64,000 bases of DNA from Pseudomonas denitrificans (nom. rej.) (lineage in GTDB: Bacteria > Pseudomonadota > Gammaproteobacteria > Pseudomonadales > Pseudomonadaceae): NCBI RefSeq assembly GCF_008807415.1, contig NZ_CP043626.1:6176501-6240500 (forward strand), in the 5' to 3' direction. Shown piece after piece: positions 1,610 through 46,580 of this stretch. The notes beneath the pieces were generated by a model. The model made no database searches and was not told the origin of the DNA. It saw only the letters and a program-made list of their open reading frames with translations. A program made the translations under genes and the position numbers. Every line of letters begins with the position of its first letter. Positions within the stretch are counted from its first letter, which is position 1.

Positions 1610-1820
1610 CGCTAGATTTCACTTGCCACGGCCCAAAAAACCGCGGCCGGGTGTCGCAGCCCGTGTTGAGCTCGGTGCCACGTAAGGCCATAGCCCTAGT
1701 CATCGCGATCCTCGGCTCGCCATCACTAAGCGCATCTATGGCGGATCGTGCGGTGCAGGCTTACGCCTGGCCGGTTCTTGGCTCCCTGCTCCCGGTACTG
1801 CGACCTCCGCACGGTCCGCC
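1610..1820 (+). ncRNA. Candidate structured leader RNA (copy 1 of 2)
   Basis: A closing stem P1 pairs 1740-1753 with 1807-1820 over 14 bp with one U-G wobble at the seventh pair. It encloses hairpin P2 (CAGGC 1756-1760 with GCCUG 1765-1769, loop UUAC) and hairpin P3 (CCGG 1771-1774 with CCGG 1792-1795). A second copy on the opposite strand near 39.7 kb has the same three-way junction with four compensatory changes in P1 and the wobble conserved. Both copies also begin with CGCTAGATT about 130-150 bases before P1 and carry CTAGT followed by CGCGATC. The wobble would be an A-C mismatch on the other strand, which fixes the transcribed strand as plus. It precedes the small gene at 1959. Function unknown. 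Confidence 0.6.
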
Positions 1821-36696: not shown

Positions 36697-38342
36697 TCCC
36701 GCACCCGTACGCCGAAACCCATGAAGTGACCAACCAGGTACCGCCGCTGGACGGCGCCAACCTCTATCGCGTCGACGTACCGCTGCAGGAGTGGGGGCGC
36801 CGTTACGGCGGTGGCTGGGCCGAGCAGAAACTCGACGCCTATGGCGCACTGGCCGGCGGGCCGCTGATGGCGGCGGGCTTCCTCGCCAACGAGAACAAGC
36901 CGGTATTCAAGTCCCACGACCGCTTCGGCCATCGCGTTGACCTGGTGGAATTCCACCCGGCCTACCACGAACTGATGCGCGCGGCCATCGAGGCCGGCCT
37001 GCCCTCGATGCCCTGGACCGATCCGCGTGCTGGCGCCCACGTCGCCCGTGCGGGCCTGAGCTACCTGCACAGCCAGGCCGAAGCCGGCACCGGCTGCCCG
37101 CTGACCATGACCTTCGCCAGCGTGCCTGCCCTGCGTCTGCAGCCGGACCTCGCCGAGAAATGGCTGCCGAAGATCCTCTCCACCGAATACGACCCGCGCA
37201 ACCTGCCCATCGAACAGAAGACCGGCGCCACCATCGGCATGGCCATGACCGAGAAGCAGGGCGGCACCGACGTGCGCGCCAACACCACCCGCGCCTACCC
37301 GGTCGGCATCCCCGGCCCGGGCCAGGCCTACGAACTGGTCGGCCACAAGTGGTTCTGCTCGGCGCCGATGTGCGACGCCTTCCTCACCCTGGCCTACACC
37401 GACAAGGGGCTGACCTGCTTCCTGCTGCCGCGCCACCGTCCGGACGGCAGCCGCAACGAGTTCTACATCCAGCGTCTGAAGAACAAGCTGGGCAACTGGT
37501 CCAACGCTTCCAGCGAAGTGGAATACCGCGGCGCGCTGGCCTGGATGGTCGGCGAGGAAGGCCGTGGCGTACCCACCATCATCGAGATGGTCGCCATGAC
37601 CCGCTTCGACTGCATGGTCGGCTCCAGCTCGCTGATGCGCCAGGCGCTGACCCAGGCCGCGCACCACTGCGCCTACCGCCAGGTCGGCGGTCGTGTTCTG
37701 GCCGAACAGCCGCTGATGCAGAACGTGCTGGCCGACCTTTCCCTGGAAAGTGAAGCCGCGCTGGCCCTGACCATGCGCATGGGTCGCGCGCTGGACAACC
37801 TGCACGACGAGCAGGAGGACAAGTTCGCCCGCCTGGTCACCGCCGTGGGCAAGTACTGGATCTGCAAACGCGCCCCCGCAATGATCAACGAGGCCGCCGA
37901 ATGCCTGGGCGGCGCCGGCTACGTCGAGGACACCATCCTCCCGCGCCTGTACCGCGAAGCGCCGGTCAACTCCACCTGGGAAGGCTCGGGCAACGTGCAG
38001 TGCCTGGACGTGCTGCGTGCCCTGTCGAAGGAGCCCGGCGTACTCGACGCGCTGTTCAGCGAGCTGGGCGACGGGCATGGCGATGCGCGCCTGGCCTCGT
38101 TCATCGGCAACCTCAAGGCCTCCTTCGCCGACACCCAGGACATCCAGTACCGCGCCCGCCAGCTCACCGAAAACGTCGCCATCGCCCTGCAGGCCAAGCT
38201 GCTGCTGGAAGCCGGCAATTCGGTGGTCTCCGACGCCTTCATCGCCAGCCGCCTGGACGACGGCGGCCGCGTCTACGGCACCCTGCCGCGCGGGGTGGAT
38301 GTGGAAGCGCTGGTGGCGCGGGCGACGCCGCATCTGGTGTGA
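36693..38342 (+). CDS. AidB-like acyl-CoA dehydrogenase
   Basis: The 549-residue FAD protein has the AidB layout: a roughly 180-residue N-terminal region, FAD-domain motif MAMTEKQGGTDVRANTTRA, a C-terminal ACAD domain with CLGGAGYVEDTILPRLYREA and NSTWEGSGNVQCLD. E. coli AidB is about this length and is linked to alkylation protection and isovaleryl-CoA dehydrogenase activity. It follows TetR with overlapping start. Confidence 0.92.
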   Translation: MIPHPYAETHEVTNQVPPLDGANLYRVDVPLQEWGRRYGGGWAEQKLDAYGALAGGPLMAAGFLANENKPVFKSHDRFGHRVDLVEFHPAYHELMRAAIEAGLPSMPWTDPRAGAHVARAGLSYLHSQAEAGTGCPLTMTFASVPALRLQPDLAEKWLPKILSTEYDPRNLPIEQKTGATIGMAMTEKQGGTDVRANTTRAYPVGIPGPGQAYELVGHKWFCSAPMCDAFLTLAYTDKGLTCFLLPRHRPDGSRNEFYIQRLKNKLGNWSNASSEVEYRGALAWMVGEEGRGVPTIIEMVAMTRFDCMVGSSSLMRQALTQAAHHCAYRQVGGRVLAEQPLMQNVLADLSLESEAALALTMRMGRALDNLHDEQEDKFARLVTAVGKYWICKRAPAMINEAAECLGGAGYVEDTILPRLYREAPVNSTWEGSGNVQCLDVLRALSKEPGVLDALFSELGDGHGDARLASFIGNLKASFADTQDIQYRARQLTENVAIALQAKLLLEAGNSVVSDAFIASRLDDGGRVYGTLPRGVDVEALVARATPHLV

Positions 38343-38368
38343 AGTTGAGCGAAAGGCTCAGGGCGGTG

Positions 38369-38668
38369 CTATGCCGCCCTTGGCTTGATCTCGTCGATGA
38401 TCTGCTGTCCCGATTCCAATTCCGCGACGCGTAGATCGAAGGCTGTCTGCAGGTTGACCCACGATTGAGCGTCACCTCCGAAGTAGCGTGCCAGGCGCAG
38501 CGCAGTGTCTGCCGTGATGCTGCGACGCTCGTTGACGATCTCGTGGATTCGGGTAGCGGGAACTCTCAGGGCTGTGGCCAAGGCGTTGGCCGACATTTCC
38601 AGCGGTGCCAGATATTCCTCTCGGAGGATTTCGCCCGGGTGAACCGGGCGCATGCGATTTTGCGTCAT
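38369..38668 (-). CDS. higA: HigA-family antitoxin
   Basis: The 99-residue XRE-type protein starts MTQNRMRPVHPGEILREEYL, the HigA signature, and has its helix-turn-helix in the region ANALATALRVPATRIHEIVN. It neutralises the HigB toxin and represses the operon. It is the second gene, 12 bases after higB, the toxin-first order typical of HigBA/GraTA. Confidence 0.95.
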   Translation of the reverse strand: MTQNRMRPVHPGEILREEYLAPLEMSANALATALRVPATRIHEIVNERRSITADTALRLARYFGGDAQSWVNLQTAFDLRVAELESGQQIIDEIKPRAA

Positions 38669-38680
38669 GTCTGTTTACCT

Positions 38681-38959
38681 TCAGTGGTAGTCCACTATCT
38701 CAACGTCGTGCACGTTGCCATCAACCCAGCGAAAGCAGATTCTCCATTGCCCGTTGATACGGATGCTGTACTGGCCGGCCCTGTTACCCTGCAGCCCTTC
38801 AAGGCGATTGCCCGGTGGCGACCTGAGAAAGTCCAGCGTCGCAGCGGCATCCAGCATTTGTAGCTTCCGTTCCGCCTGAGCCTGAAAGGCTCTGAAAGCT
38901 TTCGGACAGGTCCCTTCGAACAGCGCTTGCGTGTGTTTGCAGGCGAACGACGTGATCAT
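38681..38959 (-). CDS. higB: HigB-type mRNA-cleaving toxin
   Basis: The 92-residue RelE-fold toxin has the family pattern KAFRAFQAQAERKLQMLDAA, RLEGLQGNRAGQYSIRINGQWRICFRW and VEIVDYH. HigB cleaves mRNA on the ribosome. First gene of the module; the operator lies just upstream. All conserved basic residues appear intact, so it is likely active. Confidence 0.94.
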   Translation of the reverse strand: MITSFACKHTQALFEGTCPKAFRAFQAQAERKLQMLDAAATLDFLRSPPGNRLEGLQGNRAGQYSIRINGQWRICFRWVDGNVHDVEIVDYH

Positions 38960-38984
38960 GGAGATACGGTATCATGGCATGCGT

Positions 38985-39001
38985 ATAACGCAATGCGTAA
39001 T
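38985..39001. promoter_or_regulatory. Candidate HigA operator
   Basis: ATAACGCA-A-TGCGTAAT is an imperfect palindrome (seven of eight pairs) 26 bases upstream of the higB start. A second GCGTTATA half-box lies at 39008. The region is A+T-rich and suited to HigA autorepression. Confidence 0.5.
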
Positions 39002-39080
39002 ACGTGTCGCGTTATATTGTCGGTGAGATCGCGTAGTGACATGACTTCGGGCTCCTCAGGGGCGACGTGTACTCGGTTTA

Positions 39081-39118
39081 GTAGGGCGCATAACCTGTTC
39101 CAGGTTATGCGCCCTACG
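39081..39118. repeat. Family-B palindrome, single copy
   Basis: GTAGGGCGCATAACC-TGTTCC-AGGTTATGCGCCCTAC lies between the HigBA module and the Bro-N gene. It is perfectly symmetric apart from the centre. Confidence 0.88.
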
Positions 39119-39129
39119 TTCATTACCGG

Positions 39130-39636
39130 TCAGGCGCCAGTGAGCCAGCGCAGTGGGTGCCGCCAACCGGCGCGCGATTCCGTTTGCGGCTTGGGCTGGA
39201 GCAACTGCGGCACGTCGCTGTAGCGGACCCAGAGCTGGTCGTTCCATTCCAGCAGGGCGATGTCGCGGCTTTCCCAGCGCAGCAGGGAGCGGCGCGGGTG
39301 CTGGACGGGGAGGGTGGGGCCGCGCAGGGCAGGGATGACTTCGTGGGTGATCCACTGCCGCAGGCTGCGGTTTTCCGGGTGGCGGTAGCGCGATAGGAGA
39401 TTGAAGAAGCCGGCTTCGCAGACCAGCCAGGTGTCCTGTTCGCCGCTCTGGGTTTGCAGCCGTTCCCGGCGCTTGAGGTCGGCATCCAGGCGGTGCTCGG
39501 TGAAGTGCTCCACCGGGCAGCCCATCAGGCCGCCCAGGTCGCTGGCGGCGAACCAGGGTTGGTTTTCCAGCATCAGGGCGCGGAGCGGACGTTGGTGACG
39601 CATGAATACGCTAGATGTATGAACGTCATGGTTCAT
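39130..39636 (-). CDS. Bro-N domain protein
   Basis: The 168-residue protein matches the phage BRO N-terminal domain: RPLRALMLENQPWFAASDLG, then FFNLLSRYRHPENRSLRQWITHEVIPALR. Bro-N domains are DNA-binding modules of phages and phage remnants. No C-terminal KilA-C domain is present. The gene has a long structured leader on its 5' side and lies beside a toxin-antitoxin module, which suggests a phage-derived or defence-related insertion. Confidence 0.85.
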   Translation of the reverse strand: MNHDVHTSSVFMRHQRPLRALMLENQPWFAASDLGGLMGCPVEHFTEHRLDADLKRRERLQTQSGEQDTWLVCEAGFFNLLSRYRHPENRSLRQWITHEVIPALRGPTLPVQHPRRSLLRWESRDIALLEWNDQLWVRYSDVPQLLQPKPQTESRAGWRHPLRWLTGA

Positions 39637-40151
39637 GGCAGTACTCCAATTGTGGTTGGGAGCAGCTGCCGTCCATCGCCGTCAATCGAAGGGCGGCAAA
39701 CCGCGCAGGGTTGACGGACCGGCTCTAGCGACACCGGCAGGCCCCTCTTGAGAGCCTCCCTGCGCGATTTGCCATTGAGCATCACGAGCATTACTCGTGG
39801 GGACACCAATGGGCGCAGAGATGTACCCATCTCTGCATGCGTCGGAGGACGCGATCGCGCCACTAGAATCAGGCCGTCAAACCCGGCTGCGGGATTGACC
39901 GCAGCGCGGCCAATCTAGCGGCGGCGCCTCGATAAACAAGACGCTTCCAGAAGCTTGGGACGGCCCGACAAGCGATATACGAAAATGGAATGCAGTCGTT
40001 TCATTCCGGCTGTCATCCGCACTCGCGGTCGCGGATTCTGTCATAGGCTTTCTTCAACCCTTCCGCTCGTCCTGCCGGTTCGGAATCTGTCATCCCTTTC
40101 TGTGACGGAAGCAGGCAAGATGGAGCTGATCGTTCAGACAGGATGCCCACC
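39637..40151. other. Intergenic region between Bro-N and amn
   Basis: No convincing gene lies in these 515 bases. The left half (39637-39925) is the structured leader of the Bro-N gene. It also contains a nine-base perfect hairpin at 39815-39836 (GCAGAGATG with CATCTCTGC) and a six-base one at 39783-39799 (CACGAG with CTCGTG). The right part, 39926-40151, is the upstream region of amn with no clear promoter. Confidence 0.6.
39695..39920 (-). ncRNA. Candidate structured leader RNA (copy 2 of 2)
   Basis: On the minus strand GGCAAAUCGCGCAGGG (39773-39758) pairs with CCCUGCGCGGUUUGCC (39710-39695), 16 bp with one U-G wobble at the seventh pair. P2 is AGGCUCU with GGGGCCU around CAAGA; P3 is CCGG with CCGG, as in the copy near 1.7 kb. 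Relative to that copy, P1 pairs 4, 5, 10 and 13 change in both partners (A-U to G-C, A-U to G-C, C-G to U-A, A-U to G-C), keeping pairing. CGCTAGATT begins the element at 39920-39912 as in copy 1. It ends 58 bases before the Bro-N start. Confidence 0.65.
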
Positions 40152-46266: not shown

Positions 46267-46339
46267 GAAAGCCTCGTATTTCTATTGAATTGCGCTTATG
46301 GCGTAATTTTTAGGTATTTGTTGCTCAGGTGGTGCCTGT

Positions 46340-46564
46340 ATGAGCAATCTTAGCAATCATTTCCCCGCTCTGTCGCTTTACTATTTCTTCCAGATTCACA
46401 GCCCGGACATCACGTCCCCAGCGATCCGCCCAATCAGGCGCTTCGCGGCCCGCCGACCCAACAGGATCGCGCCGGCCACCGGGCTACGCACTGCCCAGAA
46501 GGCGGAGCGAGGTGAGCCGGCGCCAACAGCGACGAGCAGGACGAGATTCCGGAAGGGAGGCTGA
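46340..46564 (+). other. Possible leader ORF before an intrinsic terminator
   Basis: A short open frame starts MSNLSNHFPALSLYYFFQIH, with a Tyr-Tyr-Phe-Phe run at codons 14-17, and continues 74 codons to a stop inside the loop of the terminator at 46553-46580. Runs of one amino-acid family before a terminator are the mark of attenuation. The C-terminal part (Arg/Ala-rich) looks non-coding, so the real leader peptide may be the first 30 codons. No aromatic biosynthesis gene follows in this window, so the role is unclear. Confidence 0.35.
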
Positions 46565-46580
46565 CGAGCCTCCCTTTTTT
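46553..46580 (+). terminator. Intrinsic terminator
   Basis: A perfect ten-base stem AAGGGAGGCT/AGCCTCCCTT with loop GACG is followed by a T-run (TTTTTTC), the best rho-independent terminator in the window. It lies about 130 bases before the repeat-protein gene, with no classical gene upstream on the same strand. Confidence 0.85.

Follow-up and report, generated by a model that had tools for sequence, protein, structure and literature searches.

Two chromosomal modules of the phage C4 antisense RNA family in Pseudomonas and their proposed role as translational switches

Introduction

In phage P1, the small leader ORF of the icd-ant pair overlaps the main gene. The C4 antisense RNA acts on the ant messenger around its ribosome site, according to PMC12197685, and PMC5320573 describes its cutting by RNase P and names two loops, a' and b', as known contact points; a few changed loop and target letters separate the two C4 specificities of phages P1 and P7. 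In the Salmonella prophage Gifsy-1, IsrK RNA supplied in trans raised translation of anrP about 140-fold, and the stop of orf45 overlaps the start of anrP as AUGA, while the CI RNA of phage P4 acts by transcription termination (all from PMC4825925). The presence of the C4 family in Proteobacteria has a precedent in Weinberg 2010 (PMC2864571), and multi-copy chromosomal C4-like RNAs have a clear one in Acinetobacter baumannii, where GGW-motif processing is described for all but two of the C4-like Group 1 RNAs (PMC5320573). No paper on multi-copy C4 modules in Pseudomonas was found among the open-access titles searched, a body of text that largely leaves subscription journals aside.

Here we analyse two RNAs, copy 1 on the plus strand and copy 2 on the minus strand, in a 64,000-nucleotide stretch of the Pseudomonas denitrificans (nom. 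rej.) chromosome (the window). Throughout, a' denotes the junction contact and b' the specificity loop of hairpin P3, a1 and b1 their upstream complements, and a2 and b2 their downstream complements.

As in the immI c4-icd-ant region of P1 and P7, both copies pass the RF01695 threshold and have upstream complements, and copy 1 has them at its ribosome site as well. The 27-codon leader ORF of copy 1 overlaps gene 1959 and so resembles icd and ant in arrangement, and here too loop and target differ together between members. Unlike those of P1 and P7, the present modules are chromosomal, number 14 in the genome and have host-gene flanks in the window, and the product of copy 1 lacks antirepressor similarity. 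With IsrK-orf45-anrP they share a leader RNA complementary to a downstream segment, a small-ORF stop that overlaps the main start (copy 1) and an antirepressor-like product (copy 2); the differences are the chromosomal setting, a leader known here from sequence, and the low scores of the isrK model (RF01394), which stays below its gathering score of 50 in the window with 21.6 and 26.9 bits at the two copies. The A. baumannii Group 1 sRNAs are likewise multi-copy, chromosomal and C4-like with variable loops, but the parts of PMC5320573 consulted name no cognate targets for them, whereas the RNAs described here have targets and a gene of their own.

Results and Discussion

Identity of the two RNAs

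In a cmscan search of the 64-kb window against Rfam, both RNAs exceed the gathering score of 45 for RF01695, the C4 antisense RNA: copy 1 (1734–1826, +) with 63.6 bits (E = 5.5e-10) and copy 2 (39689–39779, −) with 63.2 bits (E = 6.8e-10). The copy 2 leader also passes the gathering score of RF03163, c4-a1b1 (49.4 against 46.7 bits), whereas that of copy 1 falls below it (36.5 bits, E = 9.6e-8) although it contains a perfect 7-nt a1 complement. Eight of the 14 C4 loci in the source genome match RF03163 at E up to 0.1, copy 2 alone exceeding the gathering score. We conclude that both window RNAs are of a known kind, the phage C4 antisense RNA family, and that what is unusual is the setting, with 14 chromosomal copies in one genome, most of which seem to carry their own matching target tag. 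The best isrK score in the source genome, 42.3 bits against the gathering score of 50, belongs to the leader of another locus, L013, and links IsrK with c4-a1b1.

A preliminary description had not recognised the two copies as members of any Rfam family, a reading under which they would be a structured RNA of a new kind, and had proposed a comparison with Rfam in which a match would count against that idea. The covariation and the repeated occurrence behind it are real, but such a match is what we find: both copies lie above the gathering score of RF01695 and one leader above that of RF03163. The idea is thereby refuted and keeps next to no credence. Its structural detail fares better. The positions and orientation of both copies are as described, and the three-way junction is visible in the cmscan alignments; for the extent of copy 1, given as 1610–1820, the location holds but the 3' limit does not, as the C4 core reaches 1826. 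In helix P1, pairs 4, 5, 10 and 13 are indeed G-C, G-C, U-A and G-C in copy 1 against A-U, A-U, C-G and A-U in copy 2, the U-G wobble at pair 7 is common to both, and the GG of P1, at which RNase P would cut, is present in each. The shared CGCTAGATT start lies directly 5' of the leader hairpins. The other shared stretch, a CTAGT...CGCGATC middle, does not stand: homologues do not conserve it, and since it also overlaps or follows the variable b1 region, the likeness is probably due to chance. The two downstream genes are unrelated, as had been said, one encoding a Bro-N protein and the other matching no family.

Further homologues are plentiful, C4 RNAs being found in all 25 genomes of the genus group (1–20 per genome, 215 matches summed). 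An alignment of 67 matches, of which three lie on the minus strand, contains 65 distinct rows. In it, 97.1% of cells are paired and two-sided changes occur in 20 of 25 pairs; the covariation measure is 0.455, against 0.215 for shuffles and at most 0.101 for a slid structure, values that lean towards the structure because the alignment was fitted to a model built from the source genome. The covariation described for two copies thus persists in the larger alignment. The regulatory role suggested at the outset gains strength as well, from loops complementary to the leader of the same locus and, in many cases, to its start region.

The copy 1 module

Copy 1 is flanked by the host genes YCII and holA. 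A possible −10 element, TAGATT (1613–1618, +), which is the CGCTAGATT of the preliminary description, is present in all four aligned homologues; as a strict sigma-70 scan returned no site for copy 1, the promoter remains a putative one. The c4-a1b1 leader element (1612–1667, +) contains a1, GTCGCAG (1653–1659, +), a 7-nt junction complement for which the own target ranks second of 14, and is followed by b1 (1668–1682, +), which complements the P3 loop with mismatches (score 21; own target third of 14). Within the C4 RNA, loop parsing and pairing scores place the specificity loop b' at 1774–1791 (+), and the cmscan alignment and pairing scores place the junction contact a', CTGCGAC, at 1798–1804 (+). 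Downstream, a2 (GTCGCAG, 1833–1839, +) is a perfect 7-nt junction complement and b2 (GAGCAGGGAG, 1864–1873, +) a perfect 10-nt complement of CTCCCTGCTC, the part of the loop at 1782–1791 (+), with a score of 27; both rank first of 14. The b2 segment covers Shine-Dalgarno-like letters before the 27-codon leader ORF (1883–1966, +), whose TGA overlaps the next start (ATGATTGA).

That start belongs to gene 1959 (1959–2270, +), which encodes a 103-residue protein predicted, with low confidence, to be helical (model pLDDT 69.9). It matches no family in Pfam, NCBIfam, PHROGs or PADLOC and shows no antirepressor similarity, and a search of the PDB with its model gives nothing at E ≤ 0.001. It is one of 36 database proteins, itself included, the nearest species-named relative being from P. 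nitroreducens. The start of the leader-ORF peptide and the stop-start overlap are kept in three homologous loci, L105, L106 and L107, and a similar peptide occurs in L014; holA is found no more than about 1.6 kb from L105 and L106, but not near L107. Loop and b2 differ between these three homologues while the peptide start is kept, and among the four loops of the group the own b2 is the best target for three and the own b1 for all four. Six pairwise dN/dS values for gene 1959 range from 0.12 to 0.49: 0.12 with L106, 0.13 with L105, 0.33 between L105 and L106, and 0.28–0.49 for pairs with L107.

The 3' arm of P1 (1816–1826) can also pair with 1844–1854 in an 11-bp hairpin followed by TTTTT at 1855–1859 (1816–1859, +; from the sequence and a predicted fold), which could be a terminator of the C4 transcript or a competitor of the C4 fold. 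It is absent from a terminator scan that takes loops of 3–8 only, and the predicted fold of the copy 1 precursor is no more stable than shuffles (z = −1.10). As a general attenuator, an alternative hairpin of the P1 3' arm with downstream sequence was set aside; because the general cognate excess reaches z = 3.5 only, this alternative hairpin is reported for copy 1 alone.

The copy 2 module and the aidB-amn site

Copy 2 is flanked by the host genes aidB/HigBA and amn. A TAGATT that may serve as a −10 element (39912–39917, −) is found in all seven aligned copies, and no strict sigma-70 site was found for copy 2. The c4-a1b1 leader element (39866–39918, −) includes a1 (39872–39882, −; placed by pairing score), and b1, the P3 loop complement, lies at 39857–39868 (−; score 23, first of 14). 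Loop parsing and pairing scores locate b' at 39723–39734 (−), and the junction complement a2 (39679–39687, −) ranks second of 14. The only candidate b2, TCTAGCG in the first Bro-N codons (39609–39615, −), is weak; with a score of 18 and rank 5 of 14 by loop it is indistinguishable from chance in the source genome, where no convincing ribosome-site contact is seen. A clear b2 is present in copy 2 orthologues, for example L135, L137 and L140.

The downstream gene (39130–39636, −) encodes a 168-residue Bro-N, or antirepressor-like, protein (PF02498, 37.9 bits; PHROG anti-repressor families). Its model (pLDDT 82.6) resembles models of phage antirepressors in fold (best E 6.3e-9, TM-score by query 0.44) and, like that of copy 1, finds no counterpart in the PDB at E ≤ 0.001; a sequence search of solved structures likewise gave nothing useful. 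The nearest species-named relative is from P. pseudonitroreducens. Relatives occur at 195 loci in genomes, the 80 kept all being titled Pseudomonas, in five viral contigs at 23–34% identity, and in 778 phage records, all below 60% identity and at 27–33% among the 20 matches listed.

Among 25 amn-bearing genomes, copy 2 lies beside amn in six others and is found decayed in a seventh. In the seven intact orthologues, mean pairwise identity is high in the a1 hairpins (0.98), a2 (0.98), the P1 5' arm (0.91) and the junction with the P1 3' arm (0.93), and low in the loop (0.54), the b1 window (0.48), the b2 window (0.55) and also in what remains of the leader, from b1 to C4 (0.61). Five of the seven loops have their own b1 as best target, and four (L135, L137, L139 and L140) their own b2. 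At the amn site, then, orthologues keep the scaffold, and loop and targets diverge, to judge from the aligned sequences mostly together. For Bro-N, dN/dS is 0.14–0.29 in 15 of 21 pairs and 0.33–0.60 in the six pairs with L139. For both genes the values are blurred by the extra upstream codons with which the ORFs of L135–L137, L139, L105 and L107 were called. The dN/dS values indicate that the Bro-N gene and the copy 1 gene are both under purifying selection.

The aidB-amn gap (window 38342–40143) is itself a variable site, which holds C4-Bro-N and HigBA here, a HigB-like toxin and HTH antitoxin pair adjoining copy 2 at 38369–38959 (−). Elsewhere it is empty (L256, L258), contains CRISPR-like repeats with a period of 61 nt (L257, L263), or carries other small gene pairs that we take to be toxin-antitoxin-like (L250, L251). 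At the copy 2 site of genome G022 (L264), C4 and the greater part of Bro-N are deleted; what is left is the end of the leader and the tail of the gene. One genome labelled as the source species (G017) is 79% identical at amn and matches neither copy, and its label looks doubtful.

The company that copy 2 keeps, HigBA in this genome and CRISPR-like arrays, presumed toxin-antitoxin-like pairs or nothing in others, would suit a reading of the C4-gene pairs as toxin-antitoxin-like or anti-phage modules in which C4 is both RNA antitoxin and sensor. A further point in its favour is the cargo, small genes from several unrelated clusters; against it, no PADLOC match is better than E 0.029. Release of anrP by IsrK leads to growth arrest in Salmonella, a parallel that would favour this reading, yet the toxic product of Gifsy-1 is AntQ, and anrP in a strain free of the locus gives regular colonies (PMC4825925). 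We regard the toxin-antitoxin-like or anti-phage reading as possible but doubtful, and prefer that of C4-type translational switches developed below.

Distribution and genomic surroundings

The source genome (6.88 Mb, one contig) contains 14 C4 RNAs over the gathering score. In samples taken out of larger groups, to which stricter filters were applied, C4 matches occur in 78 of 119 genomes of the family, with up to 33 per genome (36 in the same top genome under laxer filters), in 15 of 115 genomes of the order, three of the 15 being family members, and in seven of 185 of the class, of which two are family members; outside the family, the order and class samples yield 1 to 6 per genome. Within these samples, therefore, multi-copy C4 is commonest in this family. 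From the 215 genus matches, 100 were studied, comprising all 14 from the source genome and mainly the best-scoring others; L037 and L038 were left out, as were the duplicates L102 and L103, and L027 was omitted from the 99-locus test because of its short flank. Tandem C4 pairs, with starts 238–297 nt apart, were noted in G005 (L088; also near L043) and at L179.

The two window copies lie between host genes and not inside a phage or prophage; the other 12 loci were checked with two mobile-element markers, the PF04860 portal and integrase. Integrase genes are found 1.6, 12 and 15 kb from L001, L005 and L013, and the three PF04860 portal matches in the source genome are each more than about 200 kb away from any C4 (nearest about 220 kb). 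Two exact C4 patterns of chromosomal type, which match 15 and 12 of the 100 chromosomal loci, match no viral contig; exact patterns miss variants, such as the viral contig L244, whose C4 is near the chromosomal L001 type. Over 1.45 kb, that contig shares 88% identity with the chromosomal L001 locus and is therefore probably host flank.

These observations bear on whether the modules are prophage remnants in decay, with an immunity RNA that no longer has a function. The C4 family is known from phages, three of the 14 loci have an integrase nearby, presence at both window sites varies among species, and the positional copy in G022 has lost its C4 and most of its Bro-N gene, all of which decay would explain. 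It would not explain purifying selection on the Bro-N and copy 1 genes or loop-target matches that persist through sequence change, and the distance of the portal matches from any C4, for that portal family alone, and the lack of the two exact patterns in viral contigs, variants aside, also speak against it. We consider decay improbable, and retain the reading of functional chromosomal modules.

Matching of loops and targets within loci

For each loop and junction, pairing was scored with the flanks of its own C4 and of every other C4 (130 nt upstream, 90 nt downstream), using a score of our own whose weights were left unchanged after the analysis of the 14 source-genome loci; duplex energies agree with it. 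In those 14 loci, the own leader is the best of 14 upstream regions for 11 loops and 13 junctions, and the own downstream region the best for five loops and five junctions, an analysis that is not independent, because the matching was first noticed there by eye and the same loci lie within the sets of 99 and 53.

For 99 of the 100 loci, loops compared with random assignment give z = 23.2 upstream and 22.4 downstream, and junctions 16.7 and 12.6, whereas far-upstream and far-downstream controls lie between −1.8 and 0.6 (loop −1.8 and −0.5). Since related loci inflate such values, the set was reduced to 53 non-redundant loops, for which duplex energies give loop z values of 12.6 upstream and 10.6 downstream (loop far controls −0.6 and −1.9) and junction values of 10.5 and 3.9, with all controls between −1.9 and 0.6; of 5000 permutations, none attains the observed value in any of the four near regions. 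A locus's own target is the single best of 53 for 14 loops upstream and 15 downstream, and for 16 and 3 junctions, where about one is expected in each case. By this measure, specificity is a strong tendency and not absolute.

On the side of the Bro-N genes, a C4 lies within 320 nt upstream on the same strand in 61 of 80 loci from named Pseudomonas genomes. The 39 non-redundant loops from named Pseudomonas records and one viral contig, a set that partly overlaps the genus set, yield z = 13.8 upstream and 11.7 downstream, against loop controls of −0.1 and −0.6 and junction controls of 0.1 and 1.9; left out of it were three minus-strand matches, two at a distance of over 320 nt, and those 19 of the 80 loci that lack a C4 match. 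Two other genera (26 loci; four of 30 were not parsed by the loop pattern and were left out) give 11.2 and 8.0, with controls of 0.9 (loop) and 2.1 (junction), and phages (23 distinct loops; 12 of 59 matches unparsed and left out) give 8.0 and 11.1, with a control of 1.4. The phage, two-genera and Bro-N-side sets draw on loci other than those of the source genome, the Bro-N-side set sharing some species and loci with the genus set. Taken together, these scores indicate that loops fit their own targets far better than those of other loci.

Strong loop differences between copies might instead mark the C4 RNAs as trans-regulators of other host messages, as put forward for the A. baumannii Group 1 sRNAs in PMC5320573. 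Much of the loop diversity, however, is matched by diversity within the same locus, and we think such a trans-acting role unlikely, the cis-directed switch being the preferred reading.

Selection against cross-talk within a genome was also considered and set aside, the mean cross-score showing no significant reduction (P = 0.19 over all loci; 0.10 and 0.36 when split by type). Of 594 ordered pairs within a genome none has near-identical loops, against 150 among the 9306 pairs that span two genomes (P = 0.0085 by permutation of labels), a scarcity that is no proof of such selection, since orthology alone would give the same. Tags shared with phages were likewise discarded as a general feature: one loop in 100, that of L019, is identical, and it is itself of phage-type pattern. 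For nine of the 14 source-genome loops, at least one of the 23 phage downstream regions equals or outscores the own region, and for this reason we make no claim of phage sensing.

Two layouts and their cargo genes

The loci fall into two layouts. In the 75 of 100 with a CCAAC-type junction, a1 is detected in 60, b1 in 41, a2 in 59 and b2 in 58 with a 5% cut-off; in 53 of these 58, the b2 segment contains Shine-Dalgarno-like letters that a start codon closely follows (a raw count, not set against a chance level). Because b2 stretches over these letters, the loop reads as an anti-Shine-Dalgarno part joined to a variable tag. The remaining 25 loci, six of the 14 in the source genome among them, are of TTCCAC type by a rule of our own and show a1 in 25, b1 in 19, b2 in 5 and a2 in 6. 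Being mostly devoid of a2 and b2, they cannot all act by covering a start, and by analogy may work on the leader alone, closer to the CI RNA of phage P4. That RNA (seqA, seqC) is also cut from a leader and has complements upstream and downstream; it is possibly the better analogue for loci lacking a2 and b2, its mode of action being transcription termination in the account cited above.

By clustering, the first gene is Bro-N-like in 58 of 100 loci, with L005, L057 and L059 judged by eye to be mis-framed; other cargo clusters number 9, 6, 5, 4 and 3 members, and all remaining genes are singletons. A family of 52–57-residue ORFs (SLSVRLARYN-like) comes right after C4 in L015, L030, L034, L039, L044, L048 and L054, and in four of these seven (L015, L044, L048 and L054) its stop overlaps the following ATG as ATGA.

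Proposed mode of action

We propose, with a probability of roughly 80%, that both copies are chromosomal C4-type modules that function as translational off-switches, which the leader may release. In order, the module would comprise a leader (a1, b1), the C4 RNA, the a2 and b2 targets near a translation start, and a small gene. The transcript would be cut at the 5' end of C4 to free the C4 RNA, whose junction a' and P3 loop b' would then pair with a2 and b2 and block downstream translation; in copy 1, C4 would block the 27-codon leader ORF, to which gene 1959 would be coupled. The leader a1 and b1 may in turn capture C4 and relieve repression, in the manner of the IsrK leader RNA of Gifsy-1, the one other system from which this release role is drawn. 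As loop and target tags differ between loci, the 14 copies should act largely independently. Family membership, the complementary elements, matching within loci, joint change across species and purifying selection are established here; what the products do is a matter of inference. Several observations weigh against the proposal: copy 2 of the source genome has no convincing b2 at its ribosome site, the own b2 being best in four of seven orthologue loops; downstream, the own target is the best for just five of the 14 source-genome loops; the TTCCAC-type loci are mostly devoid of a2 and b2; neither copy has a strict promoter match; and some junction controls lie slightly above zero (z = 1.9 and 2.1 in the Bro-N-side and two-genera sets).

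Loop and target appear to change largely in step at one site, in a family where 14 C4 RNAs occur in this genome and 36 in a relative. If so, C4 loci would form a natural set of addressable translational switches, a view that suggests that bacterial multi-copy C4-like RNAs act first on the module that encodes them and that opens the diversification of RNA-RNA specificity to direct testing. More tentatively, and as a conjecture that we hold to be somewhat less probable than its opposite, Pseudomonadaceae chromosomes may carry a large, still diversifying repertoire of separately addressed C4 switches of phage origin, each with a loop/target tag of its own and a swappable small gene, that now act as RNA-guarded accessory modules (stress, addiction or anti-phage), selection favouring tag changes that avoid cross-talk.

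Other features of the window

The window also contains the Pseudomonas sRNA P24 (RF00629, 204.5 bits) at 46321–46575 (+). REP-like palindromes (GTAGGGCGCATAACC...) lie at about 152–188, 2275–2352 and 39081–39117, and the piece at 2275–2300 recurs many times across the genus genomes.
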